From a virus, in IMG/VR virus record IMGVR_UViG_3300025168_016169, positions 1 to 36,039 of that record: DNA of 36,039 nt; one strand, 5' to 3'. The notes beneath the pieces were generated by a model, which was not told the DNA's origin, ran no database searches, and saw nothing but the letters and a program-made list of their open reading frames with translations. The position numbers were made by a program, and so were the translations under genes. Shown in pieces: positions 402 to 31,115 of this stretch; the stretch's first letter is position 1; every line of letters starts with the position of its first letter.

Positions 402-989
402 TTATCCAGCTATACTAGATATAAATGCTTTTACTTCACCTCCTTTAACAGCAGTTAAAGCAGCTTCTAATGTAGTCAAAGATAAGTTTTTAGCTTGAAG
501 TGCTTTTACAGCAGTTGCTCCTGAAATTACTAAGAATGTAGCTACTATAACATGAAATATAGCACTTGATATTTTATCAGCTTTAGCTTTATCTTTAATA
601 AATTTACTTACTATTCCTTTAATTGGAGCCATGTATAAATGATGTAAATCATCTGCTATACCTCCTAATTTTACCATCCATTTTTGGTATTCACTTTCAT
701 CTGTTGGCTTTTTACCTAAAACTTTTCTTACAGTATTACCTGCGGCTTTACCAAACTTAGCAACTAATCCCATTATAGCAGGAAGAGCAAGAGCAATACC
801 TGCTACTGTTAAAAGACCTTCATTTTGAGTTTTAGATTTTTTTTCTAATTCATCATCTAATGCTTTTAAAACACTACTCATTTCGTCTTTTAAATCATTT
901 ACTACTGCTTCTTCTTTAGCATCTTCTTCTTCACTTAAGATATTAACAATTTCTTCCTTAATAAGTTGTTTAAGTTTTAATTGTTTCAT
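402..989 (-). CDS. Tagged virion-type protein with two hydrophobic helices
   Basis: A 195-residue protein of unknown function. Residues 4-18 form an amphipathic tag (LKLKQLIKEEIVNIL) ending in I-K-E, similar to other proteins in this region. A charged, probably coiled-coil stretch follows (about 20-55), then a hydrophobic helix at about 59-78 (LLTVAGIALALPAIMGLVAK) and another at about 144-163 (FHVIVATFLVISGATAV). The start ATG overlaps the upstream stop as ATGA. It is the last gene before the terminator. The tag suggests head packaging and the helices suggest membrane contact, for example during DNA entry. A holin is possible but the long soluble parts argue against it. No family recognised with certainty. 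Confidence 0.7.
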   Translation of the reverse strand: MKQLKLKQLIKEEIVNILSEEEDAKEEAVVNDLKDEMSSVLKALDDELEKKSKTQNEGLLTVAGIALALPAIMGLVAKFGKAAGNTVRKVLGKKPTDESEYQKWMVKLGGIADDLHHLYMAPIKGIVSKFIKDKAKADKISSAIFHVIVATFLVISGATAVKALQAKNLSLTTLEAALTAVKGGEVKAFISSIAG

Positions 990-1246
990 TTTTTATATAT
1001 TTTTAATCTTAATTTATTATCTCCTTTTATAACACGATGAAAATGGTGTCTTGGTATAAATATAGGATCATTTAATGAAGTTGGCAATTCATTATCAAGT
1101 TGTATCTTCCAATTTGTTTCTCCAAGGATTTCTAAAGTTCGATCTTCATCATCACGATGCCATAACAATTCTATTGGATCTATATTTTCAGAAAATTCAC
1201 GAATAATATAGGAATCTGTAACTTTTATATCAGTGTAAGGTTTCAA
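986..1246 (-). CDS. Small cupin-like protein (TTG start)
   Basis: An 86-residue protein. Its second half has the proline-histidine pattern of a short cupin/RmlC-type beta-barrel: WHRDDEDR at about 29-36, then PIFIPRHHFHRVIKG at about 61-75. Similar small proteins are common in T4-like marine phages. No ATG exists in the frame, so the start is TTG at 1246, overlapping the upstream stop as TTGA; this points to translational coupling. The histidines could bind a metal, but no catalytic role can be assigned. Confidence 0.68.
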   Translation of the reverse strand: MKPYTDIKVTDSYIIREFSENIDPIELLWHRDDEDRTLEILGETNWKIQLDNELPTSLNDPIFIPRHHFHRVIKGDNKLRLKIYKK

Positions 1247-1677
1247 GACTTCTTTTTATATTGTGCTTTTTTAGTATTTTTTACAAACTGTTTACCTTTT
1301 TTACCTCCTCTAACTTTTTTAGCTACAGTTGATTTTCTTTCAGCTTTAGTTAAAGATTGTGCTTTAGCTTTAGGTAAACAACGAGTTGCAGCTTTACCTT
1401 TTTTCATTGTACCACAAGCTCCTGTTATATTACCTGAGGTATTGATACGTACCCATTTTTCTTTTTTAAACCAATCACGTAAAGATTCTTTAATTACATT
1501 ACGTATTTGTTCTTCTTTTAAACCTTTCCAAATAGATCCTTTTCTACATCTAACTACAGCACCTGATTTATAAGCAGAAGGTTTATCAAATTTACGATCA
1601 GCAATACGTAAACATCTGTCTCTCTTACTCTTTTTTTCAGTAAGAACTTCTTTAATTATTTTTTCTAATCTACCCAT
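1243..1677 (-). CDS. Basic two-module virion-type protein with N-terminal I-K-E tag
   Basis: The 144-residue protein starts at the ATG at 1677, which forms a TAATG overlap with the upstream stop; an ATG two codons earlier is less likely. It has three parts: a tag (MGRLEKIIKEVLTE, residues 1-14); a first module around residues 20-52 with two cysteines (22 and 44); and a second module from about 70 with cysteines 88 and 100 followed by a very basic tail (KKVRGGKKGKQF). The second module resembles a conserved phage domain I remember as DUF6321. An internal VIKESLRDWF (61-70) repeats the tag pattern exactly at the joint. The charge suggests nucleic-acid contact. Function unknown. Confidence 0.75.
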   Translation of the reverse strand: MGRLEKIIKEVLTEKKSKRDRCLRIADRKFDKPSAYKSGAVVRCRKGSIWKGLKEEQIRNVIKESLRDWFKKEKWVRINTSGNITGACGTMKKGKAATRCLPKAKAQSLTKAERKSTVAKKVRGGKKGKQFVKNTKKAQYKKKS

Positions 1678-3323
1678 TACCAAAACCCACTAAAGGATGA
1701 TTTTAAACCTAACAATTTAGCATAGCGAGGTAGTCTACAAGACCAATATCCTGCTTTTGTTCTATCTTTCTTTTGTGCACATTTATGTCTAGCGGCAAAT
1801 GCTCGTCTTGCTTTAGGATTATTAATTTTTGCTTTTAATCCACCAGAACCAAATGAAATTTTTTTTACTTTTTTAGTTTTAGGATCTCTAACATAAACAT
1901 AATATGCTTTAGAACCACCACGTTTTGGTTTTCCTATGGGTGGGTCCTTTTTCTTTTTCTTTTTAGCTTCTTGAAGAGAAAAATTTGATACTGATTTATA
2001 CCACTTTATTAGCTCACCATAAGTCATATCTAATGCTGGGTATTGGGGATTACTTTCAAGTTTAGCCAATTCTTTAGGATATTTTTTTAACATTTTTCTA
2101 ATAGCTTCTAATCTATATAAACCTTCTCCATCTCCATCCCATGTTCTTCTATCTATACCATAACTATAAGGCCCAGTGTATATGTTATCATCATCTTCCC
2201 AATCATCTTCTTCTTCCCAATCATCTTCCCAATCCAAATCTTCTGATTCATTCATAGATTTTCTATTTAAAAACTGTTGGAATCTTCTATTAACTTCTTG
2301 ATCTATAGATTTTTTTGTCCAACCTTTACCTGGAGAATTTTGGGCTATTTTTTCTACTTCTTTTCGAATTTTGTCTAAATCTTCTGATTCATTAACTGAT
2401 CTATCGATTACATACTCTTTATCCAATAAGTCGTCAGAGCTTGTATGCAAATGACGCTGGAGGTTTTCTTGGGCTTGGATATAAAGTTTATTTTGGGCTT
2501 TATTAATTCCTAAAGCCTCTACATGCCATTTATCACCATGTTTCATTTTGACATACTTTTCAGCAGCTGCGTAATCTTCTTTGGTTGGTTTAGTATCAAC
2601 AGCTTGACCAAATATTCTTTGAGCTTCTTTATATTCCCTGTCAATAATACGTTTCCAATCAATTTTTTCAATCCCCCAATCTAAATCTTCTGATTCATTC
2701 ATTAATCCTTTAGAAAACATTATAAAAGGATAATAAGCTCTATCATCATCATAATCTCTTTCATACTCAAAATTAGAAAGATCAGCATTTACTTTAAATC
2801 CTTTACTTTCAATAAAATCAACCATGTCATCAAACTCTTCATAAATATCTCCTTTGATTAATATAGATAATTTTTGATCACCAATTAATGAAGTTCTTAC
2901 ATTAAATTCTTTTTCAAATTCATTTTGTAATGTTTTTGGATCTACATTTTCATTTAACATAGGTAAATCTAAAGGTACTTTTTCACCTTCATACATTCCA
3001 TAATTACCTAAGTCAGTTTCTGATAGAATTTCTTTATCATCTTCATTTACATGAATAATTTCACGTAAATATAAATAACGTGCTTCTTGCCATAAATTAA
3101 GGAAAGATTCGGAACCATAACGAAATGTGTTTTCGGTTAGTGGGAGTTTATTTTGCACATGATATTGCAGATTTTCCGATAATATCATTTTAGGGGCTTT
3201 GCTTTCATTTAATAAGATACCTTCATTACCTACATTATCACAAGTATTGCAACCACAATTGCAATCTTTCTTTTTAGGTTGAGTAGATAATGCTTCTTTT
3301 ATTAAATTTGTTAAACGTGACAT
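1677..3323 (-). CDS. Modular tagged virion polyprotein-like protein with NESEDLD repeats
   Basis: A 548-residue protein built as a chain of short modules. It begins with MSRLTNLIKEAL (1-12), then a cysteine cluster CNCGCNTC (21-28). Joints of the form L/V/M-N-E lie at 38-40, 92-94, 123-125, 208-210, 310-312 and 357-359, and NESEDLD occurs three times (209-215, 311-317, 358-364). A D/E/W-rich stretch occupies about 359-380. The C-terminal domain (about 471-548) is basic and ends in an ARHKC...GYWSCR motif that I recall from other T4-like phages. The next gene starts in a TAATG overlap. I infer a head-packaged precursor that may be cut at the N-E joints; no enzyme activity is recognised. Confidence 0.75.
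   Translation of the reverse strand: MSRLTNLIKEALSTQPKKKDCNCGCNTCDNVGNEGILLNESKAPKMILSENLQYHVQNKLPLTENTFRYGSESFLNLWQEARYLYLREIIHVNEDDKEILSETDLGNYGMYEGEKVPLDLPMLNENVDPKTLQNEFEKEFNVRTSLIGDQKLSILIKGDIYEEFDDMVDFIESKGFKVNADLSNFEYERDYDDDRAYYPFIMFSKGLMNESEDLDWGIEKIDWKRIIDREYKEAQRIFGQAVDTKPTKEDYAAAEKYVKMKHGDKWHVEALGINKAQNKLYIQAQENLQRHLHTSSDDLLDKEYVIDRSVNESEDLDKIRKEVEKIAQNSPGKGWTKKSIDQEVNRRFQQFLNRKSMNESEDLDWEDDWEEEDDWEDDDNIYTGPYSYGIDRRTWDGDGEGLYRLEAIRKMLKKYPKELAKLESNPQYPALDMTYGELIKWYKSVSNFSLQEAKKKKKKDPPIGKPKRGGSKAYYVYVRDPKTKKVKKISFGSGGLKAKINNPKARRAFAARHKCAQKKDRTKAGYWSCRLPRYAKLLGLKSSFSGFW
2232..2699 (-). repeat. Three dispersed NESEDLD-coding repeats
   Basis: The heptapeptide NESEDLD is encoded at 2679-2699, 2373-2393 and 2232-2252 by nearly identical 21-base stretches. 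Each copy follows a hydrophobic residue (M, V, M), giving [M/V]-N-E-S-E-D-L-D, and each sits between modules of different sequence. The repeats look like duplicated linkers rather than repeats within a domain. Confidence 0.85.
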
Positions 3324-3325
3324 AT

Positions 3326-3335
3326 TAATAAATAT
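3326..3335 (-). promoter_or_regulatory. ATATTTATTA element upstream of the 548-residue protein gene
   Basis: The coding strand reads ATATTTATTA ending only 2 bases before the ATG at 3323. It is a one-base variant of the element at 7066, 24422, 27045, 31126 and 34121. The very short spacing would give a leaderless or missing 5' end, so this copy is a weaker promoter candidate. Confidence 0.3.
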
Positions 3336-3338
3336 TAT

Positions 3339-4502
3339 TTAAATATTAAATTTTTCTTTCCAAACAGGATTAATTATCCAATTATTATCTTCCATAATAT
3401 AACAAGCAGAATTTCCTCCTTTACCATATCCTCTAAGATGTAAACCTATATCAGCATCTAACTCATTAATAGGTTTTAAGTTATTTATAAAATTTTCAAT
3501 ACTATTAGGAACTTCTCCTTTAAAATAACAATTAGCTGTAGCTTCAGAGTCTTTACCAAATTTATTTGCGCCTGAGTATGCTTCATATTCTTGTTCAGGG
3601 GTTAATTCATAATTTGAGTTATAGGGTTTGGTTTTAATAAACCAATGCATATAAGGACTTCTTGTTCCTATTTTATTATCTTGTAATTTTTGATAAAAAT
3701 CAAGAATTATTTTTTTGCTATCTTCTAACCCTAATATTTGTTCAAATCTTGCAGGTAACATCCAGTTTTCTACAAAAGTAGCATTAGCAGCCTTTAAACT
3801 AATTTTTAAATCACCCCCATAAGGACTAATAGGTTTATTTAGTTTAACAAATACATCTGTTTTTGGATTACCTTTACCTTTAAATGTTGGGGCCCCAAGT
3901 CTTTCTATTTCATATTGTTTTTTGTCATAACTAAACTCATAATTTTTTCCAGATGTGTCAAATAAAAGTTTTACTATATCTTTTTCTTGTCCATGTCCTG
4001 CTTTAAAATTATTAAAAACATTTTCTTTAGTTTTACTATCTGGGTTAACATCTATAAATTCTATTTGTTTTCCTGATGGTTTTAAGATGTCTGTTAATCT
4101 AATTAAATATTCTTTATCTTTATAATTTATGCGTGTATAATATGAGGATCCCTTTTTAGTTAAATTAGATTCTTTATTATCTATAATTTTAAATTTTTCA
4201 CCTTTACCTAAATTGTCTACTATTTCAAAAGATTTAGGGTCAAATATAGGTGCATCCCTTTCAGTTTCAAAATCCATAGTATCAGAGCTATCATTTAACT
4301 CTATATATTTATAAAAAGCACCTGTTGGTTGACTATAATTTGTAGTTCTACCCCCTAAATTAGCTTCTTTTAAAGAAATAAATATTCCTCTTTCTTTTAA
4401 TAAACTTTCTAACATTAAAATATCCTGTTCATTTTCTATGTCAGGATATCCCTTAGGAAATTTGTATGCTATACCATGTAAAAATTTATCTAAAACGTCC
4501 AT
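3339..4502 (-). CDS. Possible PD-(D/E)XK-like nuclease in the virion-protein cluster
   Basis: A 387-residue protein. The middle resembles a restriction-endonuclease fold: GHGQEKDI (E173), PKTDVFVKL (D216) and DLKISLKAAN (S235-L236-K237). The spacing and the strand-strand-helix look fit a PD-(D/E)XK core with serine in place of the usual acidic residue before x-K. The N-terminus carries two L-K-E segments (ESLLKE 32-37, ISLKE 42-46) like the tags and joints of its neighbours. Its start is in a TAATG overlap with the gene at 4502-4975. It could be an injected or packaged nuclease; an inactive relative or unrelated fold remains possible. Confidence 0.5.
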   Translation of the reverse strand: MDVLDKFLHGIAYKFPKGYPDIENEQDILMLESLLKERGIFISLKEANLGGRTTNYSQPTGAFYKYIELNDSSDTMDFETERDAPIFDPKSFEIVDNLGKGEKFKIIDNKESNLTKKGSSYYTRINYKDKEYLIRLTDILKPSGKQIEFIDVNPDSKTKENVFNNFKAGHGQEKDIVKLLFDTSGKNYEFSYDKKQYEIERLGAPTFKGKGNPKTDVFVKLNKPISPYGGDLKISLKAANATFVENWMLPARFEQILGLEDSKKIILDFYQKLQDNKIGTRSPYMHWFIKTKPYNSNYELTPEQEYEAYSGANKFGKDSEATANCYFKGEVPNSIENFINNLKPINELDADIGLHLRGYGKGGNSACYIMEDNNWIINPVWKEKFNI

Positions 4503-4975
4503 TATGTTTCTGGTTCTTCAATTGGTGTTTCTTCTGTTGTAGGTTCTTCAGGTGGTGCTTCAGCACCTGCTTCAGGTTCAAATCCTTCTCCATCTTCTTC
4601 TCCTTCTTCAGTTTTAACTCCATATCTTAATATACGAGCTATTGACTCAGCAGCACGTTGTTCTTCTGGTAGATTTAATAAATAATATTTTTTGCCTTCA
4701 ACTTGGGCAATAAAACTTCTTTTGCCATAAATTAAATAAAATAGTTGATCATTTTTTAAATTAATTCGAAAAGTAGAAGGACGTGGTGCAACCCAATCAA
4801 TTGAAGCTACAAAACTATCATACTCAGGAGTTAAAAGATCTACAATAATAGCTTTTAATTCAGGAAATTTGGTTAATTCATCATATTGAACAGCTTCCTC
4901 AGGTGTAATAGTTCGATTAGAATATACCTGTTTAATTAAAATTTTTAATTTACTTTGTAGTGCTTCTCTAGTCAT
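4502..4975 (-). CDS. Small virion-type protein with acidic C-terminal tail
   Basis: A 157-residue protein. It starts with an amphipathic helix (ALQSKLKILIKQVY, 5-18) like the local tag but with Q in place of the final E. A globular middle follows (about 55-120: STFRINLKNDQLFYLI, then a strand-rich KRSFIAQVEGKKYYLLNLP). The last 35 residues are almost all E, P, T, A and G and should be disordered. Similar proteins occur in T4-like marine phages as putative structural proteins. Both ends are in TAATG overlaps, so it is translationally coupled to its neighbours. Function unknown. Confidence 0.65.
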   Translation of the reverse strand: MTREALQSKLKILIKQVYSNRTITPEEAVQYDELTKFPELKAIIVDLLTPEYDSFVASIDWVAPRPSTFRINLKNDQLFYLIYGKRSFIAQVEGKKYYLLNLPEEQRAAESIARILRYGVKTEEGEEDGEGFEPEAGAEAPPEEPTTEETPIEEPET

Positions 4976-6165
4976 TATCTAAGTTTAGAAAATATAGTTT
5001 CTGCTAATTTTTTTGATGGAGATACTAGTCTTCCATATGCTGATTGATCAGCAGATATTTTTAATGCACTATCTCCTGTAATAGCAGCTGATAAATAATC
5101 AATACTTTTATCTAATTCTTCAACATCTGCTTCAGTATCATCTTGACTTTTATCTACTTTTTCAGTAGCTTTAAGTATATCAAATAAAATAGGTTGTAAT
5201 TTTTCTATAGATTTTACTGTTTCAGGGTTTTCACTTAATTTTTTTACAACAGTTTCAACTACTTTTTTTTTGTTTTTTGCAGATAAATGACCCATAGATG
5301 GTTTAAGTTTTTCATTAATTACTCCTTCCTCACTTGCAACGTCTACCATTGCATCAATTTGAGGTTCTTTCATTTCAAAATCAAGATAGTGTTTTGCAGA
5401 AACTAACATACTTTTTGACTTAGTAATTTTTGTTTGCCACCAATGTGGAAAATCTACTTCACCATCCATTTCATCAAATTTATCAACCATTTTATAAAGC
5501 TCCATAGCATATTTTCCAATACGATATAAATCAGATTTTAACATTCCTGGTTCATCATCTGTATGGCCTATGTCAAGATCTTCATCTAATCCTTTAGCTT
5601 TTTTAAATCTTTCATAATCTGCTTGTCTTTTAGCATCTTCTTCTTTTCTTCTCTTTTCTAATGCCTTTCGATTTGCTCCAAAAGAATCTCCTAAATCTTT
5701 CATTAGTTGTCTCTCTTCATCACTCATCTTATCTTCTTCAGATATAGGTTCATCAGAAATTTCTTCAGATGGTGTTTCAAGTTCTTTTTGCATTGATTTT
5801 TCAATAGCAGCTCCTCTTTTCTTTTCATAATCAGAAAGCTTACCATCTTTATTTAAATCAGCTTTTTTAGGATTTTTTAAGGCATCTTTAACCATTTCTT
5901 TAAGTCTAATTAACATTGGACCAGCTGGTGTGTTTCCAATTTCTCCATCTACTCCATATCCACAAGTCCCTTCTTCGATTTCTTTTTCCATAGGTTTTTC
6001 TTCTGCTTGTTTTTTAACTTGTTTAACAGCTTTAGCGTATGCTACTTTTTCGGCTTCAGAGCCATATCTTTTAACCAATTTGTCTCTCCGAGTTCCAACT
6101 ATAGACAAAAAATTGTCATATATCTTTTTAGATTCCTCAGGAGAGAACGCTTCGGTTAGTTTCAT
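4975..6165 (-). CDS. Helical virion-type protein with one EF-hand loop
   Basis: A 396-residue, highly charged, mostly helical protein. Residues 103-114 (DLNKDGKLSDYE) are a perfect single EF-hand calcium loop: D1, N3, D5, G6, L8 and E12. A conserved aromatic segment lies in the middle (GHTDDEPGML from about 201, then EMDGEVDFPHWWQTKI), which I recall from other T4-like environmental phages. The C-terminal third is alpha-helical. The N-terminus (MKLTEAF) gives an early L-T-E. The setting among core-like and histone-like genes suggests a head-internal or structural protein, but the role is unknown. Confidence 0.65.
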   Translation of the reverse strand: MKLTEAFSPEESKKIYDNFLSIVGTRRDKLVKRYGSEAEKVAYAKAVKQVKKQAEEKPMEKEIEEGTCGYGVDGEIGNTPAGPMLIRLKEMVKDALKNPKKADLNKDGKLSDYEKKRGAAIEKSMQKELETPSEEISDEPISEEDKMSDEERQLMKDLGDSFGANRKALEKRRKEEDAKRQADYERFKKAKGLDEDLDIGHTDDEPGMLKSDLYRIGKYAMELYKMVDKFDEMDGEVDFPHWWQTKITKSKSMLVSAKHYLDFEMKEPQIDAMVDVASEEGVINEKLKPSMGHLSAKNKKKVVETVVKKLSENPETVKSIEKLQPILFDILKATEKVDKSQDDTEADVEELDKSIDYLSAAITGDSALKISADQSAYGRLVSPSKKLAETIFSKLR

Positions 6166-6168
6166 TTA

Positions 6169-6339
6169 TTAAGCTTTATCTTCAGCAGTTGATGTTCTTT
6201 TAAAATCAGCTGCTAGTTTTTTAATTTCATTAGCTGCTCTACGTGCACGCGTACGAGCTACTTTTGTTGTTTTTTCGTTTTCAGTTTCTAAAGTAACTAA
6301 TTGTTCTTTAACTGCTTCAATAATTTCATTTAAGTTCAT
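6169..6339 (-). CDS. Small Hc1/histone H1-like DNA-binding protein
   Basis: A 56-residue gene with ATG at 6339 and TAA at 6169. After a helical start (MNLNEIIEAVKEQL) comes TKVARTRARRAANEIKKLA, the basic 'TRARxAxxEIKKLA' pattern of Bacteroidota histone H1-like (Hc1 family) proteins. The usual family length is about 55-65 residues, so it looks complete. It should bind and compact DNA. It lies between the acidic core-like protein (6368) and the EF-hand protein (4975), four bases before the latter's ATG. This fits a DNA-packing role in the head or on host DNA. The family match is by remembered motif only. Confidence 0.65.
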   Translation of the reverse strand: MNLNEIIEAVKEQLVTLETENEKTTKVARTRARRAANEIKKLAADFKRTSTAEDKA

Positions 6340-6367
6340 AGTTTTTATTTTTTATAGATTTTATTAT

Positions 6368-7051
6368 TTATTCTTCTCCTCCAATGTATTCACCTACAAA
6401 GAATTTTAAGGTGTTTCCTATTTGAGTAGTAAGTTTTTCATTATCCATTGCTTTGGATACTTTTAAAGCTGAAATTAAATGATCCATTAGATCACCTTCA
6501 TCACCTTCCATATCAGCAGCAATATCTTCAATTCCACCTCCAGTTTCAGTTTCTTCTTCTGCTTCAACTTCAACCTCTTCTTCAGGTGCTTCTTCAGGTG
6601 CTTCTTCTTCTTTTTCTTCTTCTTCTTCTTCTTCCTTAGCTTCTTCTAAAGATTCTTCCTCACTTAATTCGTTAATAATCATTTCACGAATTTTTGATTT
6701 AAGGTCTTCTTTTTCATCTTTCATACCATCAAGATAACCTTCTTCTTCAGCATCAGTACGGGCATCTTCTTTTAAAATATAATCACCATGTCTATGTTTT
6801 TCAACAGATGACATTTTTTTAAGAACACCCATTAAATCTTTTTTTTCTGCTCCTAATTTTTTAGCAGCAGCTACTAATGGTTTTAAACCAGCAGCTCCAC
6901 CTTCTTTTTTAAGTACAGATTTAATAGTTTTTTCTAATTTGCTTTTATCAAATTTTTCTTTTTTTTCTTTTGCTTCTTTTAAAAAAGGATTTGAATTTTC
7001 AATGGTTTTATTATCCGTTAGAAATTTCTTTAAATTAAAGTTATCTTTCAT
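6368..7051 (-). CDS. Acidic prohead-core-like protein
   Basis: A 227-residue protein with a basic, helical first half (KSKLEKTIKSVLKKEGG; KPLVAAAKKLGAEKKDLMGVLKK) and a strongly acidic centre (about 125-172, runs of up to seven E). A C-terminal amphipathic domain follows (about 185-227, MDHLISALKVSKAMDNEKL...). It has several I/L-x-E sites, for example LKE at 24-26 and LSE at 128-130. T4 scaffold and core proteins have this low-complexity acidic, helical character and are cut by the prohead protease. I infer a core or internal head protein; there is no direct sequence match. A promoter-like element precedes it at 7066. Confidence 0.6.
   Translation of the reverse strand: MKDNFNLKKFLTDNKTIENSNPFLKEAKEKKEKFDKSKLEKTIKSVLKKEGGAAGLKPLVAAAKKLGAEKKDLMGVLKKMSSVEKHRHGDYILKEDARTDAEEEGYLDGMKDEKEDLKSKIREMIINELSEEESLEEAKEEEEEEEKEEEAPEEAPEEEVEVEAEEETETGGGIEDIAADMEGDEGDLMDHLISALKVSKAMDNEKLTTQIGNTLKFFVGEYIGGEE
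6550..6660 (-). repeat. Glu-coding GAA/GAG low-complexity tract
   Basis: A purine-rich microsatellite-like run on the coding strand (CTT repeats on the plus strand) encodes the poly-Glu centre of the acidic protein. Such tracts vary in length by slippage. The repeat keeps frame with codons throughout. Confidence 0.85.
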
Positions 7052-7065
7052 TTTAAAATATTTTG

Positions 7066-7075
7066 TTATAAATAT
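7066..7075 (-). promoter_or_regulatory. ATATTTATAA promoter-like element
   Basis: The coding strand reads ATATTTATAA, 14 bases before the ATG at 7051, in a 56-base gap between genes. It matches identical elements at 24422, 27045, 31126 and 34121. The proposed role is a late-promoter -10 element for the gp55-like sigma factor. Confidence 0.5.
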
Positions 7076-7107
7076 ATAAAGCTAATACATACTACAGGAA
7101 AGTAATA

Positions 7108-7680
7108 TTATTTTTTTAAATTTTTAAAGTATTCTATACCTTCTTCCATTGCTGCTTTAGCACGTTTTTTATCAATTCCACCTACCCATTTTTGGATATC
7201 ACCAGCTTCAGTAACATAATTATTATTACTTTCAGAAAGCATATCTTTCATAAAGTTTTTATATTCTTCAATATTAATATCTATTTCTTTATTAAATGTA
7301 GTTTTAATATATTCTTCCCATTTACCTTCAGTTTTTAATTTAGTTTCAGTAACAGCTCTACAATTAACACATTCTCCATAAGCTTTATAATAATAAGGAT
7401 CTAACTGCCCATCCATGTTTTCTTTACATTTAGGACAAAATATAGGAACAGCTACTTTTTTAAATTTATCTAATTTAGTAACATTTTCTTTTATACCATC
7501 ACGTATAGTCCATTTTTTTCCATTTTCTTCCCAAATATCACCTTCTTTATAGGAAATTGATTCTTCACCATTATAACCTATACCAGTAGTTATTTTTTTA
7601 TCTGTTTTACCTTTTATAAGGTTTCGAAGACGTTCTACATCTCGTTTTTGAAATTGTTTTTTTAAAACTGAATCTGACAT
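7108..7680 (-). CDS. Zinc-ribbon protein conserved in T4-like phages
   Basis: A 190-residue protein. It starts with a basic helix (LKKQFQKRDVERLRNLIKG), then a small beta region (EGDIWEENGKKWTIRDGIK), then a zinc ribbon with CPKC at about 82-85 and CVNC at about 98-101. The C-terminus reads VTEAGDIQKWVGGIDKKRA. The whole arrangement matches a family I remember from many T4-like environmental phages, with no assigned function. The I/L-x-E joint motif is absent from its first residues. The start is in a TAATG overlap with the HAD gene. It may bind nucleic acid through the ribbon. Confidence 0.72.
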   Translation of the reverse strand: MSDSVLKKQFQKRDVERLRNLIKGKTDKKITTGIGYNGEESISYKEGDIWEENGKKWTIRDGIKENVTKLDKFKKVAVPIFCPKCKENMDGQLDPYYYKAYGECVNCRAVTETKLKTEGKWEEYIKTTFNKEIDINIEEYKNFMKDMLSESNNNYVTEAGDIQKWVGGIDKKRAKAAMEEGIEYFKNLKK

Positions 7681-8225
7681 TATAATCCTAATTGTTTTAG
7701 TTGTTTAATTGAATCATCTGCTGATATGTATAAAATACCTGTTCCACCATTAGCATTCCAAGTGTCAATTGTACTTGCTTTATCGTCTATAAGTATATCT
7801 GTTTTAGTAAGAGACTGTTTTACTTGGTGTTTTTGTTTTGCAGGTTTAAAATTTACTTTTGGTGTATCAGGAAATAAATCAGAATGGATTTTACGTAACC
7901 ATATCATTTTTCCTAATCTAGATTGTTTTTTAATAGAAGGAGCAGTTAACATTTCATAGTCGTATTGTGAAACATAATCTATTAACTTTTTAGCTCCAGA
8001 CATTACAGGTATACCTGCCCAAAATTTTACTTTATTTTCTTCATCTATAAAGTCCCAAAATTTATTCATACCATATTTATCTCTATATTCATCTGGGGTT
8101 AGACCTGATAGGTCAATAAATCTTTGATCAAAATCAGCTATTACACCATCCATATCTAAATAGATAGTATACGCAGATACATCGTTTTCTTTAATTAGTT
8201 TATATAAATCAAATAAATTTGCCAT
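7680..8225 (-). CDS. HAD-family 5'-nucleotidase-like phosphatase with L-I-K-E tag
   Basis: A 181-residue protein from the ATG at 8225, two bases after the upstream stop; a longer frame from 8270 would run into the upstream gene. It starts with MANLFDLYKLIKENDV, an amphipathic tag ending L-I-K-E (10-13). HAD motif I follows: IYLDMDGVIADF with nucleophile D24 and acid D26. Motif II/III candidates are LTAPS and the late LIDDKASTIDTW. The size and sequence resemble 5'(3')-deoxyribonucleotidases. It should dephosphorylate a nucleotide or another small phosphate. The tag raises the possibility that it is carried in the head. Fold certain, substrate inferred. Confidence 0.78.
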   Translation of the reverse strand: MANLFDLYKLIKENDVSAYTIYLDMDGVIADFDQRFIDLSGLTPDEYRDKYGMNKFWDFIDEENKVKFWAGIPVMSGAKKLIDYVSQYDYEMLTAPSIKKQSRLGKMIWLRKIHSDLFPDTPKVNFKPAKQKHQVKQSLTKTDILIDDKASTIDTWNANGGTGILYISADDSIKQLKQLGL

Positions 8226-8227
8226 AA

Positions 8228-11035
8228 TTAAAATTGAGGTAAACTTAATGCCTTTCTTCTGCTTCTCCACAGATCTAGAATTTTTTCTTTTTCTTCAGGG
8301 GTGATTTCTTGGGCATCTAAATAAGTATTTATTACATCTCCAAAAGATCTTTTTTCTTTTTTAGCTCTAAAATACATTCCTTGTAAATTAGCATCTACTT
8401 CTTTTGGTAATTGAAAATATTCAGCTTGAGGTATAAGTTTAGCTTTAACTAAAGCTCTTATAAGAGAATCATCTTCAAATTTTTCTTTTTTTGTTTTTGA
8501 ATCTCCTGATTGTGTAATATGTTCAATTTCATGTCTTACAACATCTTTAAGATTCATAGATATTTCTTCCCAAAATTCAGGTAACATTTTAGGATCAATT
8601 TCAAAAGTTACTTCTAAATATCCTGGGAGTTTTTCTTTGGTTTTAGGATTAATTCGAGCTTCATCAGAACCACCATCTACTTTAAGTTGTTTTGATCCAG
8701 GTGTGAATTGTATTTGAGCTTTTACATCAATACCTCTTGGAGGGAAATCATAAGTATCTTCATATGTTGATAATTTATCTCCTTCTTCATAATCTTCTTT
8801 CCAATTTGAAAATATATCTCTTGAAATTTGATTTGATAAAGTATCATAACGGCCTTCTTTTAATTGAGGAGTATTATCATGATTACATTTATGACACATA
8901 TATAAATCATCTCCACCATCTTTTATTTTCCATTCCCATCCACAATTATCACATTTAATTTTATCTCCAATAATTATTTCTTCTAAACTAGCTAATTCTC
9001 TAGCATATTGGTTTAAACCAAAAGGATCTTTACCTAAATTTTTATTAAAACCGTGTTTATGTTTATATGGTTTTTCTTTTTCATTTAAACTAGTAACTTC
9101 TTCTCCATCAATACCATCTGTATAATTTCTAAAAAGCATATTACCTTTTGTGTATGCTTCTCTTTCTATATCATTTAAATAATCATCTTCCATTGTATTA
9201 GTAGTACTAATATCTTTTAATCTACCTTCTAAATTTTGAATATGATGAATCATTTCATGAGCATATGATCTTACTACATCTTTAGGATGTCTACCTTTAG
9301 TATATAATACTATTATCATATTATTAGGATCATAATATGCAGTTTTACCTAAAAAATCTTTAGCATTTTCTTCATCATTATGTTTAAATATTATTTTAGG
9401 TAAGGGTTTAATATTCATACCCTTTTTTAACATATGTTTAGTTAAATCTTTAACTTGTTGTTTATAATCTATATAATTAGAATATGTAGTATTTTCATTT
9501 AAAGGTTTGTATGCTGAACCAAAAGGAGATGATTTACCTTTATGTTTAGCTTGTGCTTTTGGATCAATATTTTCTTTTTCTAGTTCAGGGTGGAATTTCA
9601 TAGAAACTTCTTTAGCATCAGGTTTAATTGATTCACCATCTACTAATACTTCAACGGGATATATTTTAGCATCATTCCCATACCAATAATTCATTTTATA
9701 TCCACCTTCTTTAGTTAACTCAACAATTAATCCTCTATCATAATCTTCACTTTCAGCTTGTAAATATATTTTTTTACCCCTTGGTAAAACTAAAGATGTC
9801 TTTTCTAAAATATCTTCATTTACTTTTTGTTTTTTCATTCTTTCTGTTTTCTTCTTAGAGGCTTCTTTACGTTTTTTAATATATTCAAAAGCAGAACGTA
9901 ACTTAGCTTTCTTTTGAGGGTCTTTAGTTCTACTTAAAGCAGCTCTTACTCTTTGATGTATTAAATTAATAATTTGAGATTGACGAGCATGAGATTTAGA
10001 TTTAAATGAAGTTTTATTTAAAGTATTTATTATATCTTGTCTTGTAGAAAACTTAACTTTAACAGTGTCTGATGGGTCTTCATCTGTGTATAAACGTCTT
10101 TTTGATCCTTTGGGTTTTTTTCCTGTGCCTTTTTTAGGGTCAGCTTCATTTATTATTTCATATAAAAATGAAGTAGGAATTAATGATGATTTTAATGCAG
10201 GTATTCTAGATAAAAGTAAATAAATAAACCCACCTGGTAAGATAGAAGCTGCTGTAAATCCAGCTAATTTTAAAGTATTTTTTAATTGATTGCCAATTTC
10301 AATTTTTTCACTTTTAGTTAAAGTTTCACCAGTTCTTACAGCATGGGCTAATTTCCCAAATGCCTTTTGTATATCTTTACTTTGAGTTTTTAATTTTTCA
10401 ATAAAATTATCAAATTTACCTTTTAAATCTTTAAAATAGTCTTCTATTTTTCCTTCATCTAATGGTTGAGATGATAAAATGTTCCAAATTTCATCTTGAT
10501 TAACATTATTAGGCAGAAAACTATTAAAAGCTTCTTTATTATTATTTATTAATGCTTTACGAGCATTAGTTCCACTCATACCTCCGTCAGGAGTAATAAT
10601 AGTTTTTAAATTAAGATTAGGATACTTATTTATAGATATAGATCTTGATGATATATCTTGTAAATCATCTTCTCTACCTTCTCTAGATCCTATAATCCAA
10701 TATAAAGAATCTTCAGGATTATCTTTAGCATATCTATAAATATCTCCAATTGGAGAAACAGATTTTTCTATTCTAACTGGTTTGTCAAGTAATTGTTTAT
10801 AATATTCATCCCAAATTTTAAATGATTGATCTTGAGTAATACCATCTCTTACTTTACTACCAACAAAAATTATAATATTATCTATTTCAGGGTTGTTTTT
10901 TATAGCTTTTTGAAGAACTTCTAAATGTCCTGCTGTTGGTGGTTTAAAACCACCTCCAAATAAAGCAGTAACTTCTTTACCTCCTATACTTTCGGGTAAA
11001 AAATCTTTAATAAGTGATTTAGTTAAGGAATCCAT
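8228..11035 (-). CDS. Multidomain polyprotein-like protein: nucleotidyltransferase, LETM1-like segment, two HExxH metalloprotease modules
   Basis: A 935-residue protein with at least six parts. (1) Tag MDSLTKSLIKDFL (1-13). (2) Cytidylyltransferase/NMNAT-type nucleotidyltransferase: GGGFKPPTAGH (27-37) and MSGTNAR (153-159). (3) LETM1-like hydrophobic segment, about 195-292 (AASILPGGFIYLLL). (4) Very basic helical module, 300-402. (5) Beta region, 412-510. (6) Metalloprotease with HEMIH (593-597). (7) Zinc ribbon C695/C698/C714/C717. (8) Second HExxH, HEIEH (835-839). Joints carry LDE 192-194, INE 295-297, VNE 405-407, LNE 512-514, LNE 650-652 and LKE 725-727. Overlaps the kinase gene by 17 bases. 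The domains are visible; processing is inferred. Confidence 0.78.
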   Translation of the reverse strand: MDSLTKSLIKDFLPESIGGKEVTALFGGGFKPPTAGHLEVLQKAIKNNPEIDNIIIFVGSKVRDGITQDQSFKIWDEYYKQLLDKPVRIEKSVSPIGDIYRYAKDNPEDSLYWIIGSREGREDDLQDISSRSISINKYPNLNLKTIITPDGGMSGTNARKALINNNKEAFNSFLPNNVNQDEIWNILSSQPLDEGKIEDYFKDLKGKFDNFIEKLKTQSKDIQKAFGKLAHAVRTGETLTKSEKIEIGNQLKNTLKLAGFTAASILPGGFIYLLLSRIPALKSSLIPTSFLYEIINEADPKKGTGKKPKGSKRRLYTDEDPSDTVKVKFSTRQDIINTLNKTSFKSKSHARQSQIINLIHQRVRAALSRTKDPQKKAKLRSAFEYIKKRKEASKKKTERMKKQKVNEDILEKTSLVLPRGKKIYLQAESEDYDRGLIVELTKEGGYKMNYWYGNDAKIYPVEVLVDGESIKPDAKEVSMKFHPELEKENIDPKAQAKHKGKSSPFGSAYKPLNENTTYSNYIDYKQQVKDLTKHMLKKGMNIKPLPKIIFKHNDEENAKDFLGKTAYYDPNNMIIVLYTKGRHPKDVVRSYAHEMIHHIQNLEGRLKDISTTNTMEDDYLNDIEREAYTKGNMLFRNYTDGIDGEEVTSLNEKEKPYKHKHGFNKNLGKDPFGLNQYARELASLEEIIIGDKIKCDNCGWEWKIKDGGDDLYMCHKCNHDNTPQLKEGRYDTLSNQISRDIFSNWKEDYEEGDKLSTYEDTYDFPPRGIDVKAQIQFTPGSKQLKVDGGSDEARINPKTKEKLPGYLEVTFEIDPKMLPEFWEEISMNLKDVVRHEIEHITQSGDSKTKKEKFEDDSLIRALVKAKLIPQAEYFQLPKEVDANLQGMYFRAKKEKRSFGDVINTYLDAQEITPEEKEKILDLWRSRRKALSLPQF

Positions 11036-11780
11036 CTATTTTACTCTTGATTTGGTTTTGAGGGGTAAATTCTGGTAGGGATGAAAGTAGTTGTTTTATA
11101 GAATTTTCTAATTCTTTTTGTTCTTTAGCTTTTTGCAATTTTTCTTCATCACTATATTCTCTAGCTGCCGTTACTTGGTCAAAATATTTTTTTATTTCTT
11201 GTTCATTGTAAGTTTTATCAGCACCTTCGGGATCATTATTTACTAATATAAAATTATTTCCAAACATATTATTAAAAACATCAACATTTTTATTTACTTT
11301 TTCCCAAGTACGAACTATAATTGAAGGTCGAAGTGATCTATCTCCTGCTTCTCCTCTAGATCTATTACGTTCTAAAGATACAAGTGGTGAAACATATATC
11401 ATTACCATCATTGTATTATACCCTAAATCTTCTAATTGTGTTTTCTTTTTTAATATAGGATTTGATGCACCACCAGTACCATCGATTATAATACTTTCTC
11501 CTTCTTTTTGAGCAGATTGAAGTTTAGCTGTTGTTTCTTTACGAGCTCTACTCATTAATTTAGATGATTGAGATAATTCATCTGAAGTAAAGGTTGATTG
11601 GGGTTTATCTAATCCTGCCTGTTTAAGTAACTCTTCATATGTATCATCTACATTAATTACTTTTAAGTTAGGAATATTATTTTTAATAAAGGTTGATTTA
11701 CCACTTCCTGCGGGGCCTGCTAAAAAGATAGCTTTAGGACCATTTTGGATTTCTTTTAATAATTTTATTAGGCTTATCAT
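11019..11780 (-). CDS. P-loop kinase, polynucleotide-kinase/zeta-toxin-like, with L-L-K-E tag
   Basis: A 253-residue protein. After the tag MISLIKLLKEIQ (1-12) comes a Walker A GPAGSGKST (22-30), then VINVDDTYEE, a Walker B-like strand SIIIDGTGG at about 96-104, and an arginine-rich lid (ERNRSRGEAGDRSLRPS, about 135-151). This is the AAA_33 / polynucleotide kinase / zeta-toxin pattern, so it should transfer ATP phosphate to a nucleic acid end or small molecule. The C-terminal 50 residues are helical and charged. Similar tagged kinases occur in T4-like environmental phages. It lies just upstream of the nucleotidyltransferase-protease gene. The substrate cannot be read from the sequence. Confidence 0.78.
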   Translation of the reverse strand: MISLIKLLKEIQNGPKAIFLAGPAGSGKSTFIKNNIPNLKVINVDDTYEELLKQAGLDKPQSTFTSDELSQSSKLMSRARKETTAKLQSAQKEGESIIIDGTGGASNPILKKKTQLEDLGYNTMMVMIYVSPLVSLERNRSRGEAGDRSLRPSIIVRTWEKVNKNVDVFNNMFGNNFILVNNDPEGADKTYNEQEIKKYFDQVTAAREYSDEEKLQKAKEQKELENSIKQLLSSLPEFTPQNQIKSKIDGFLN

Positions 11781-26693: not shown

Positions 26694-27038
26694 TTATTTA
26701 TTTAGTAATCCCATTATTGTATCCATCCCTACAGACCCTTCTCCTAAATTCCCATTTATTGGATCTGCTCCTTGTGGGTTAAAAGAAGAAACATCTTTAC
26801 TAGTCATACTTATAGCAGTTTCACCCATTATATCAGTATATTTTTGTTTAATATCCATAGTAGGTTCTGTATAAGAGGGTGGTGGTGGGGTAGAAGGAGT
26901 TATAGTAGGTTGAATTGATTCTCTTACAATTTGTGTTTTTGGAGCTTTTACAGCTTCCAGTAAAATATCCTTCAATTCATCTTGAATTGCTTCTTTTACT
27001 GCTTCTTTAATTAGTTTTTTAAGTATTTCGGTTTTCAT
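26694..27038 (-). CDS. Tagged small structural-type protein with Pro-rich middle
   Basis: A 114-residue protein. It starts MKTEILKKLIKEAVKEAIQDEL, an amphipathic helix ending L-I-K-E like the tags in the region left of 11780, here in the baseplate block. A Pro/Thr-rich linker follows (about 43-58), then an acidic and Gly-rich C-terminus. A promoter-like element at 27045 precedes the start by 6 bases. Its tag outside the head-cargo block is an exception to a pure head-packaging explanation. Function unknown. Confidence 0.68.
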   Translation of the reverse strand: MKTEILKKLIKEAVKEAIQDELKDILLEAVKAPKTQIVRESIQPTITPSTPPPPSYTEPTMDIKQKYTDIMGETAISMTSKDVSSFNPQGADPINGNLGEGSVGMDTIMGLLNK

Positions 27039-29502: not shown

Positions 29503-30777
29503 TTATATAGTTTTTACAAAATTTGATTTAATATCATCAAGTTGCTCTAATACTTCTTGTAAATTTTGGGCCGCTAATTTTGCAGGTCCTTGTATAGCAG
29601 CATCAGGAACACCAACAACATTAGGTCCTGTAAATGCTTGAATAGTTTTTAAAGCAGTTGCTAAATTAGCAATTTCTTTAACAATTATTTTTAAATATTC
29701 TACTGTTAAATCACCTTTTAAAACTGATTCTTTAGCATCTTTTGATCCTAATCTAACATCAGTACTATCTATACAAATTTTTTCTTTAGCTTCTAAATAA
29801 ACCCCATTATTAGAAGATAAACTAACAGATGAATTACCGCTAATTAAAACACTATCTGTTTTAGCATTTATTACAACTCTATTTGAATTTAAGGCTATTT
29901 GAGGTTTAGTGTAATTTGATGGTAATTGAGGTTTAGTCATGTATGAAATAAAATCTTCATTTGCTAAACTAAATGGGAGTTTTTGTGTAGATGTTAAATA
30001 TATAGAAGATAAATCATCTTTAATATTTTCTGTGGTTGGGACCCATCCTGCTTCATCAACATTAGGAGATTGACCATTTCTTAAAATTATAATAGGATCA
30101 CCATTATTTCCACTTTCAGACCAATTATTTTTTTTCTTACTATTAGATTTAGCAGTATGGCCTAATCTAATACTTTGTCCATATCTTCCTTCGATAATAT
30201 TATCCCCCATAAAAGGCATTAAAGGATAAATATTAGATTTTTCAACAAATGTATTTTGAGATGGGTTTTGAGTACTGTTTAAATTTACAATTGGATCAGT
30301 AGAAACATTTAAATTGGAAGATTTTGAATATTTATTTGGAGTAGTTGTTTTTTTAAACAATTCAGAAAAAGGTAAAGAATTAGGATTAGCATTATGATGG
30401 GGGTGATTCCATATTCCTATAGGACTAAAATAAAAAGTTTTACTATCAATTGTTTTTGAATCATAATCAATATTTTTTGGAATAGAAATCAGTATAATTT
30501 GTTCATTTATTAAAGGAAACACTTTTAATTGAGAAAAAAGGGGAAATGATTTTGATAACCCAGATGATGATGTATTATCAATAGGTTCTGTAAAAATAGC
30601 TCCTATGTCAGTCCATGATTCATATTTAGGATGGTTTTCATCTAAAATAATATCTGTTACTCTAGCAGCTGTTAAGTTAAATGGGGAAGAAGTACTTCCA
30701 CCTTCTCCAAGATTAAGATTACGATTATTTACTAGTGTATCTGTTCTATTACTTACTCCTGTTCTTAAAATAGCCAT
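29503..30777 (-). CDS. Baseplate spike/hub protein, gp5-like, without lysozyme domain
   Basis: A 424-residue protein. Residues 38-120 form an OB-like beta region (ARVTDIILDENHPKYES ... QLKVFPLINEQIILI); GRYGQSIRLG near 198-207 and GDPIIILRNGQ near 227-237 follow, a pattern remembered from gp5-like proteins of T4-like marine phages. Residues about 297-345 read as a repetitive beta-helix (VVINAKTDSVLISGNSSVSL) like a VgrG/gp5 needle. The T4 gp5 lysozyme domain is absent. A helical C-terminus ends the protein. It should form the trimeric cell-piercing spike. Confidence 0.75.
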   Translation of the reverse strand: MAILRTGVSNRTDTLVNNRNLNLGEGGSTSSPFNLTAARVTDIILDENHPKYESWTDIGAIFTEPIDNTSSSGLSKSFPLFSQLKVFPLINEQIILISIPKNIDYDSKTIDSKTFYFSPIGIWNHPHHNANPNSLPFSELFKKTTTPNKYSKSSNLNVSTDPIVNLNSTQNPSQNTFVEKSNIYPLMPFMGDNIIEGRYGQSIRLGHTAKSNSKKKNNWSESGNNGDPIIILRNGQSPNVDEAGWVPTTENIKDDLSSIYLTSTQKLPFSLANEDFISYMTKPQLPSNYTKPQIALNSNRVVINAKTDSVLISGNSSVSLSSNNGVYLEAKEKICIDSTDVRLGSKDAKESVLKGDLTVEYLKIIVKEIANLATALKTIQAFTGPNVVGVPDAAIQGPAKLAAQNLQEVLEQLDDIKSNFVKTI

Positions 30778-31115
30778 TAATCTTTTGGTTTAAATTTTTC
30801 TATTTCAGTTAAAAGTTGTTGTTTTTCTTCTTCTGTCATTCCAAATCCATCTTCTTCAGATTTATTAGATGCTAAGGTTCGTTGAACAATAGTAGCCATT
30901 TTTACTAATTGTTCATCATTTTTAATACCTAATTCCATATATTCTTTAATAAGAGGAACTACTAAAGTAGCATCCCCTAAATCATTAATTAGTGGTTTTA
31001 ATTCACCTATTAAAGTTGAAATTTGGGTTTCTTTCTTTTTTTGATTATCATAAATTTCCTTAAGTATATCAGAAAATTTTTTCTTACCAAAAACATTTGA
31101 GTCTAAACTTCCCAT
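30777..31115 (-). CDS. Small helical protein with internal I-L-K-E segment
   Basis: A 112-residue helical protein conserved among T4-like phages but without a known function, as far as I recall. Residues 14-22 read FSDILKEIY, then DATLVVPLIKEYMELGIKNDEQLVKMATIVQRTLA from about 48. Its ATG lies 10 bases after an ATATTTATAA element and its stop makes a TAATG overlap with the spike gene. This position, first after the sigma factor gene, suggests it opens the baseplate transcript. Confidence 0.68.
   Translation of the reverse strand: MGSLDSNVFGKKKFSDILKEIYDNQKKKETQISTLIGELKPLINDLGDATLVVPLIKEYMELGIKNDEQLVKMATIVQRTLASNKSEEDGFGMTEEEKQQLLTEIEKFKPKD

Follow-up and report, generated by a model that had tools for sequence, protein, structure and literature searches.

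An N-terminal tag shared by unrelated proteins of a T4-like phage fragment resembles the capsid-targeting sequence of phage T4

A number of unrelated proteins encoded in the analyzed DNA, and in many marine relatives, begin with a short common element. With a probability of roughly 76%, this tag is a T4-type capsid-targeting leader according to the full model, which includes docking, a protease cut and injection. What was observed is the element with its register and modularity; in addition, close relatives have protease genes, and in one T4-like cyanophage the tag is statistically linked to presence in the virion. Head targeting is a strong inference, and cleavage is plausible without having been shown. 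The claim of the sequence-only reading that the tag is a head-targeting sequence is supported by the T4 register, the protease of the relatives, the leaders of homologues and the virion link in the phage S-CREM2. The support reaches as far as a tag that works like the capsid-targeting sequence (CTS) of T4.

The analyzed stretch (hereafter, the window) is a linear fragment of 36,039 bases taken from a virus record and belonging to an uncultured T4-like phage. Homologues of the baseplate proteins gp6 and gp25 are present in the window and the gp20-gp21-gp23 head genes were found in relatives, which met the criterion for a T4-like myovirus. A DNA-level search of the window against phage records gave no match. 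Among annotated phages, those closest to it are Flavobacterium phage immuto and Microcystis phage Mel-JY01 (gp6 identity of about 43%). In immuto, the counterparts of the region 402-11780 are located between the primase/exonuclease genes and those for terL, portal, prohead protease, scaffold and major capsid protein (MCP). The window is a fragment, and the capsid and protease genes are absent from it.

Seven tagged N-termini had been claimed, and all of them were found on the minus strand after the correction of two starts: as in relatives, the ORF at 7680 begins at an internal ATG (8225; MANLFDLYKLIKEND) and the ORF at 1243 begins at an ATG near 1677 (MGRLEKIIKE). The list of tagged proteins was incomplete, as the protein at 6368 with a leader of a second class had been missed; its relatives have E where the window has D. 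The near match proposed at 4502 (LIKQ) exists but lacks the Glu. The candidate genes are as follows (a slash marks the putative end of a leader).

402..989, minus strand: 195-aa protein with the long-class tag MKQLKLKQLIKEEIVNILSE/EED; the same body in relatives carries a long (L350) or short (L210, L222) tag
1243..1677, minus strand: DUF5872-like basic protein (Pfam PF19197), tag MGRLEKIIKEVLTE/KK, start corrected; tag conserved in immuto and relatives
1677..3323, minus strand: 548-aa protein with the short-class tag MSRLTNLIKE/ALS (phrog_7595)
6368..7051, minus strand: acidic protein with a leader of the second class, MKDNFNLKKFLTDNK..NPFLKE; relatives have FLTEN
7680..8225, minus strand: 5'(3')-deoxyribonucleotidase-like HAD phosphatase, tag MANLFDLYKLIKEND preceding the fold (phrog_2643, E 3.9e-25; alignment of 38)
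8228..11035, minus strand: 935-aa NMNAT/cytidylyltransferase-like protein, tag MDSLTKSLIKD, then FLPE/S (phrog_3041 and phrog_395)
11019..11780, minus strand: P-loop kinase (AAA_33/zeta-toxin-like family), short tag MISLIKLLKE/IQNGPKAIFLAGPAGSGKS; alignment of 35 homologues
26694..27038, minus strand: 114-aa protein adjoining gp25 in the baseplate cluster, tag MKTEILKKLIKEAVKEAIQDELKDILLE; immuto homologue, 43%
30777..31115, minus strand: small tail-cluster protein with a possible late heptad FSDILKE (E20), a weaker candidate; conserved in the relatives G001 and G002

Further LxE sites (LLNES, ILSEN, PLTEN) are found in the body of the 548-aa protein. The Mel-JY01 homologue of the 195-aa protein is encoded one gene after the MCP. 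The protein at 26694 has at least 80 viral relatives, and in its immuto homologue (43%) the segment LKKLIKEAVKEA is identical. In the ORF at 8228-11035, the NMNAT-like domain is fused to a later HEMIHH metallopeptidase-like (HExxH-like) stretch and a zinc-ribbon-like CxxC pair. In the ORF at 3339-4502 (MDVLDKFLHGIAYKFPKGYPD), the heptad Glu is lost, while relatives have the heptad with E or D at this place (FIRD, FIRE, ILTE, VLLE).

The tags share the register hydrophobic-x-x-hydrophobic-hydrophobic-x-E, which occurs in two main classes: a short one with Glu at residue 10, for example MIKLIDILKE, and a long one, MKKSELKQLIKEEIxxxLNE, with Glu at residue 12. This register is that of known T4 leaders, as IPII and IPIII begin with MKTYQEFIAE/A and gp24 with MAKINELLRE/S; the first 10 residues of gp24 are lost in T4 (PMC9958956). 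Mutants of the T4 CTS have shown that residues 4 and 7 serve targeting and residues 8 and 10 processing (PMC9026906). Hydrophobic residues 4 and 7 with [I/L]-x-E at 8-10 are found exactly in the short class and shifted by two in the long class, and so this criterion for a CTS was met. A T4 leader has also been reported to be sufficient for packaging a foreign protein (Mullaney and Black 1996, cited in PMC9026906).

Other recurrent leaders were noted. The second class, MxNFxLKKFLxENKLTxNSxLLxE, has the same heptad and occurs on several acidic or small proteins (window 6368-7051, where D stands in place of E; L004 17631-18931; L091, L165, L203). A third element, RMQKLAGIITE or LAGIIK, fits L-x-x-I-I-x-E and is located at N-termini (L004 11675-12139; L122 2629) and at the C-termini of scaffold proteins (immuto, Mel-JY01). 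A fourth, MKLLFENWRxYLxE, is found on large proteins encoded in related T4-like contigs from the sea (L564-L569; G030, G035).

As the sequence-only reading had proposed, the N-termini were aligned with those of homologues. A leader-like extension is kept in the kinase family (35/35) and in the deoxynucleotidase family (alignment of 38). The claim would have been refuted if most homologues of the kinase and phosphatase lacked the tag, and this was not the case. The kinase homologues share 26-88% identity with the window copy. In the alignment of 35, Glu10 is invariant, like the lysine of the P-loop, and Leu4 is nearly so, while residue 9 varies (K, R, L, V, M, T); this is the pattern that an [I/L]-x-E site would give. 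In AlphaFold 2 models, the tag is outside the confidently predicted fold: in the kinase, residues 1-10 have a pLDDT of 52 and the body one of about 90, and in the HAD phosphatase, residues 1-20 have 65-67 while most of the body exceeds 90.

The same features bear on the possibility that the tag is a scaffold-docking helix which targets the protein to the prohead core but is normally uncut and stays on the mature protein. When residue 10 of the T4 CTS is Asp, targeting is retained and processing is lost (PMC9026906), and the protein at 8228 has D; moreover, the residue after E10 in short tags is most often Ile (25/63), whereas the sites of proteases and MCPs are mostly followed by Ser or Ala. 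Against an uncut helix stands the invariant E10 beside a variable residue 9 in the kinases. The second [LIVM]xE of the long tags also speaks against it: no search demanded such a site, and in 46 of the 82 dereplicated cases residue 20 is precisely its last. In ADP-ribosyltransferase (ART)-like proteins, the body begins E/[GAS]KQ, and [GAS]KQ[VIA]G directly follows LNE, ITE, INE or LRE, so that these junctions always come after [IL]xE. Permanent retention of the helix is therefore considered unlikely, but it cannot be set aside.

For the CTS reading, the abundance of the tag was estimated by counting [LIF][LIV][KR][ED] at residues 5-14, with the expectation taken from the internal frequency of the motif. 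It was found in 7 of the 37 window ORFs against 0.21 expected (p about 2e-9). The motif had been chosen from these same data, and for this reason independent genomes were used. Two 156-kb relatives contained it in 15/198 (G001; 1.0 expected) and 18/220 ORFs (G002; 1.35 expected), and 240 dereplicated loci in 135/1385 (11 expected). The excess in the loci of relatives is 10- to 20-fold, and there are about 15-18 motif-bearing ORFs per genome. Note that these loci were selected via tagged families, so their excess is greater than that of phages at large; random viral contigs showed none (4/814 against 4.7 expected). When the DNA was scanned for LKxLIKEEI without requiring ATG, 82 matches were obtained, the great majority of them N-terminal and on unrelated proteins, with peaks at Met+5 and Met+7. 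A 24-position weight matrix built from these matches was too strict and position counts were used instead, while tblastn with the short tag peptide gave no match because the query was too short.

The tag is also modular. In 108 dereplicated tagged proteins, conserved columns are confined to the tag (E10 partly by selection) and the bodies are unrelated; a short N-terminal element common to unrelated proteins is itself a criterion for a CTS, and it was met. Homologous bodies carry the short or the long class interchangeably, and in one relative MK[HP]S[QE]LK[QK]LIKEE stands at the start of four ORFs in a row and of a fifth close by. Pfam matches among the tagged proteins include zeta-toxin/AAA_33 kinases, NT5C, Fe/Mn superoxide dismutase, PD-(D/E)XK nuclease and one Tox-ART-HYD1. 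A family of small ART-like proteins (YHFT...) lies beside other tagged genes (L104 1478, L114 7919, L134 6421, L207 17545). At G002 97666-100793 (L274, L275), neighbouring ORFs have near-identical leaders and unrelated bodies, which resembles the variable internal-protein locus of T-even phages.

Could the tag be a coincidence, a product of base composition or a recent duplication of one gene start, with no shared function? The genome is AT-rich, the proteome is rich in Lys, Glu and Ile, and some tandem copies, such as those in G002, are very alike. However, neither the internal rates nor the random contigs give an excess and the positional statistics contradict chance, the bodies of the 108 dereplicated proteins are unrelated, and E10 is conserved across divergent kinases. 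This explanation can practically be dismissed.

The CTS reading requires a prohead protease, and it had been suggested to search for its gene elsewhere in the genome. Near-complete genomes of close relatives (122-156 kb) encode a T4-type enzyme, and the criterion of a gp21-type (S77) protease was met there; the window itself is a fragment without head genes. In immuto, the protease gene follows the last counterpart of the 402-11780 genes at a distance of about 8 kb. The protease was found in all 14 tag-bearing contigs of at least 100 kb, which were picked regardless of it, though this count is confounded by shared ancestry. Six tag contigs had no S77 match: G027, G030, G035 and G039 are apparent T4-like fragments (PhoH or gp6/gp25 matches), and G024 and G026 had no marker match either. 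The missing protease is uninformative, since these contigs are fragment-like or markerless. Each of the 75 distinct proteases itself carries [LIVM]xE close to its N-terminus, mostly as LTE, LRE, LKE or LNE, and the heptad was found at the N-termini of 26/38 MCPs against a background of 1.6%. A small tag-like ORF lies between portal and protease, near the position of T4 genes 67/68, in 26/28 immuto-like loci and in only 3/44 loci of the other protease clade.

No proteomics data were found for the window phage or a flavobacterial relative. For the T4-like cyanophage S-CREM2, the virion proteins are listed in Table 3 of PMC10665884. Of the 27 proteins in this list without a known structural role, 5 have hydrophobic residues 4, 7 and 8 with Glu10, namely SAM hydrolase, ORF13, APH-like kinase, cytidylyltransferase and ORF136; among the ORFs that were not detected, the count is 1/164 (Fisher p=2e-4). 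The comparison excludes three genes that were incomplete in the sequence pieces used. Over all virion proteins, the fixed E10 register gave p=0.003, and a looser pattern tried first, the heptad anywhere in the first 22 residues, discriminated more weakly (p=0.03). This result rests on five proteins of one phage, the choice of pattern followed T4 and an initial inspection of these very data, and virion preparations can carry contaminants. The virion-detected cytidylyltransferase shares PHROG 395 and 3041 with the protein at 8228, and NMNATs were detected in the virions of S-SCSM1 and S-CBWM1 (PMC9602691). Cyanophage NMNAT homologues start with MKKFSAFLTE/A, MKSFFQFLSE/A or MRFLDFIKE/A; the S-PM2 piece does not show such a leader. 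The virion-detected gp12 of S-CREM2 (L576 7704-10313), annotated as Cas9-like, has RFASFMAEAA near residue 25, which would be CTS-like if translation starts downstream.

These data also limit the idea that the helix directs the protein somewhere other than the head. Such a destination could be the host membrane, the baseplate or tail, or, within the infected cell, a complex of phage or host proteins. The 114-aa protein at 26694, encoded beside gp25 in the baseplate cluster, would suit such an address. The register, however, is that of verified T4 head leaders, the heptad stands at MCP N-termini and on the small portal-protease ORF, and the link to virion presence holds among non-structural proteins. 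A non-head address is thus improbable.

In the proposed CTS mechanism, the leader would be an amphipathic helix of 10-20 residues with hydrophobic P7, P4 and P3 and Glu at P1. This Glu is E10 in the short class; in the long class it is E12, and another [IL]xE is present at residue 20. The helix would dock the protein onto the scaffolding core during prohead building, and a gp21-type prohead protease would most likely cut after an [I/L]-x-E that is located inside the leader or terminates it. The freed enzyme may then stay in the DNA-filled head and be injected at infection. Core docking, the cleavage site, injection and an early function in the host are all inferred. Against the CTS reading stand Ile after E10 of short tags, the K-D at 8228, the loss of Glu at 3339, the location of 26694 among baseplate genes and the scarcity of the portal-protease ORF in the other clade.

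Searches of the literature on capsid targeting together with marine phages, cyanophages and genome surveys found no description of the tag, and searches for the motif strings returned only irrelevant papers. The leader family is wide, modular and undescribed in the literature searched; the T4 CTS itself is already known. We lean slightly towards a broader interpretation, in which marine and freshwater T4-like phages share a general head-loading code readable from sequence and interchangeable leaders load a large, fast-evolving set of injected effectors, comparable to a secretion-system repertoire. The proposed cargo would include kinases, nucleotidases, NMNAT, ART-like proteins, superoxide dismutase and many unknowns. 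If this is true, the proteins injected by many uncultured T4-like phages could be read from sequence alone, more than 100 unannotated families would become candidate early host-takeover or anti-defence proteins, and the question of cargo could be tested by one virion proteomics experiment.

Compared with known systems, the tag is most similar to the CTS of T4 IPII and IPIII: both are N-terminal decapeptides on unrelated bodies, with hydrophobic residues 4, 7 and 8, Glu10 and [I/L]-x-E, and a T4-type protease is encoded in the relatives. However, residue identity is low, the tag usually has K or R before Glu, it has an additional long class with two sites, and its cleavage is unproved; about 15-18 motif-bearing ORFs per genome compare with the three internal proteins plus Alt of T4. 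The propeptide of T4 gp24 matches the pattern very closely, including the basic residue before Glu, but gp24 is a shell protein and the tag is found mainly on enzymes and small proteins. Like the head-loaded ADP-ribosyltransferase Alt of T4, ART-like bodies recur among the tagged proteins; unlike Alt, they are small, weakly matched (one Tox-ART-HYD1) and putative, with no activity data. Finally, the inner-body propeptides of the giant phages SPN3US and phiKZ are likewise N-terminal leaders removed by a protease from ejected proteins, although those of SPN3US mostly exceed 100 residues and have AxE or SxE sites (PMC5694885).
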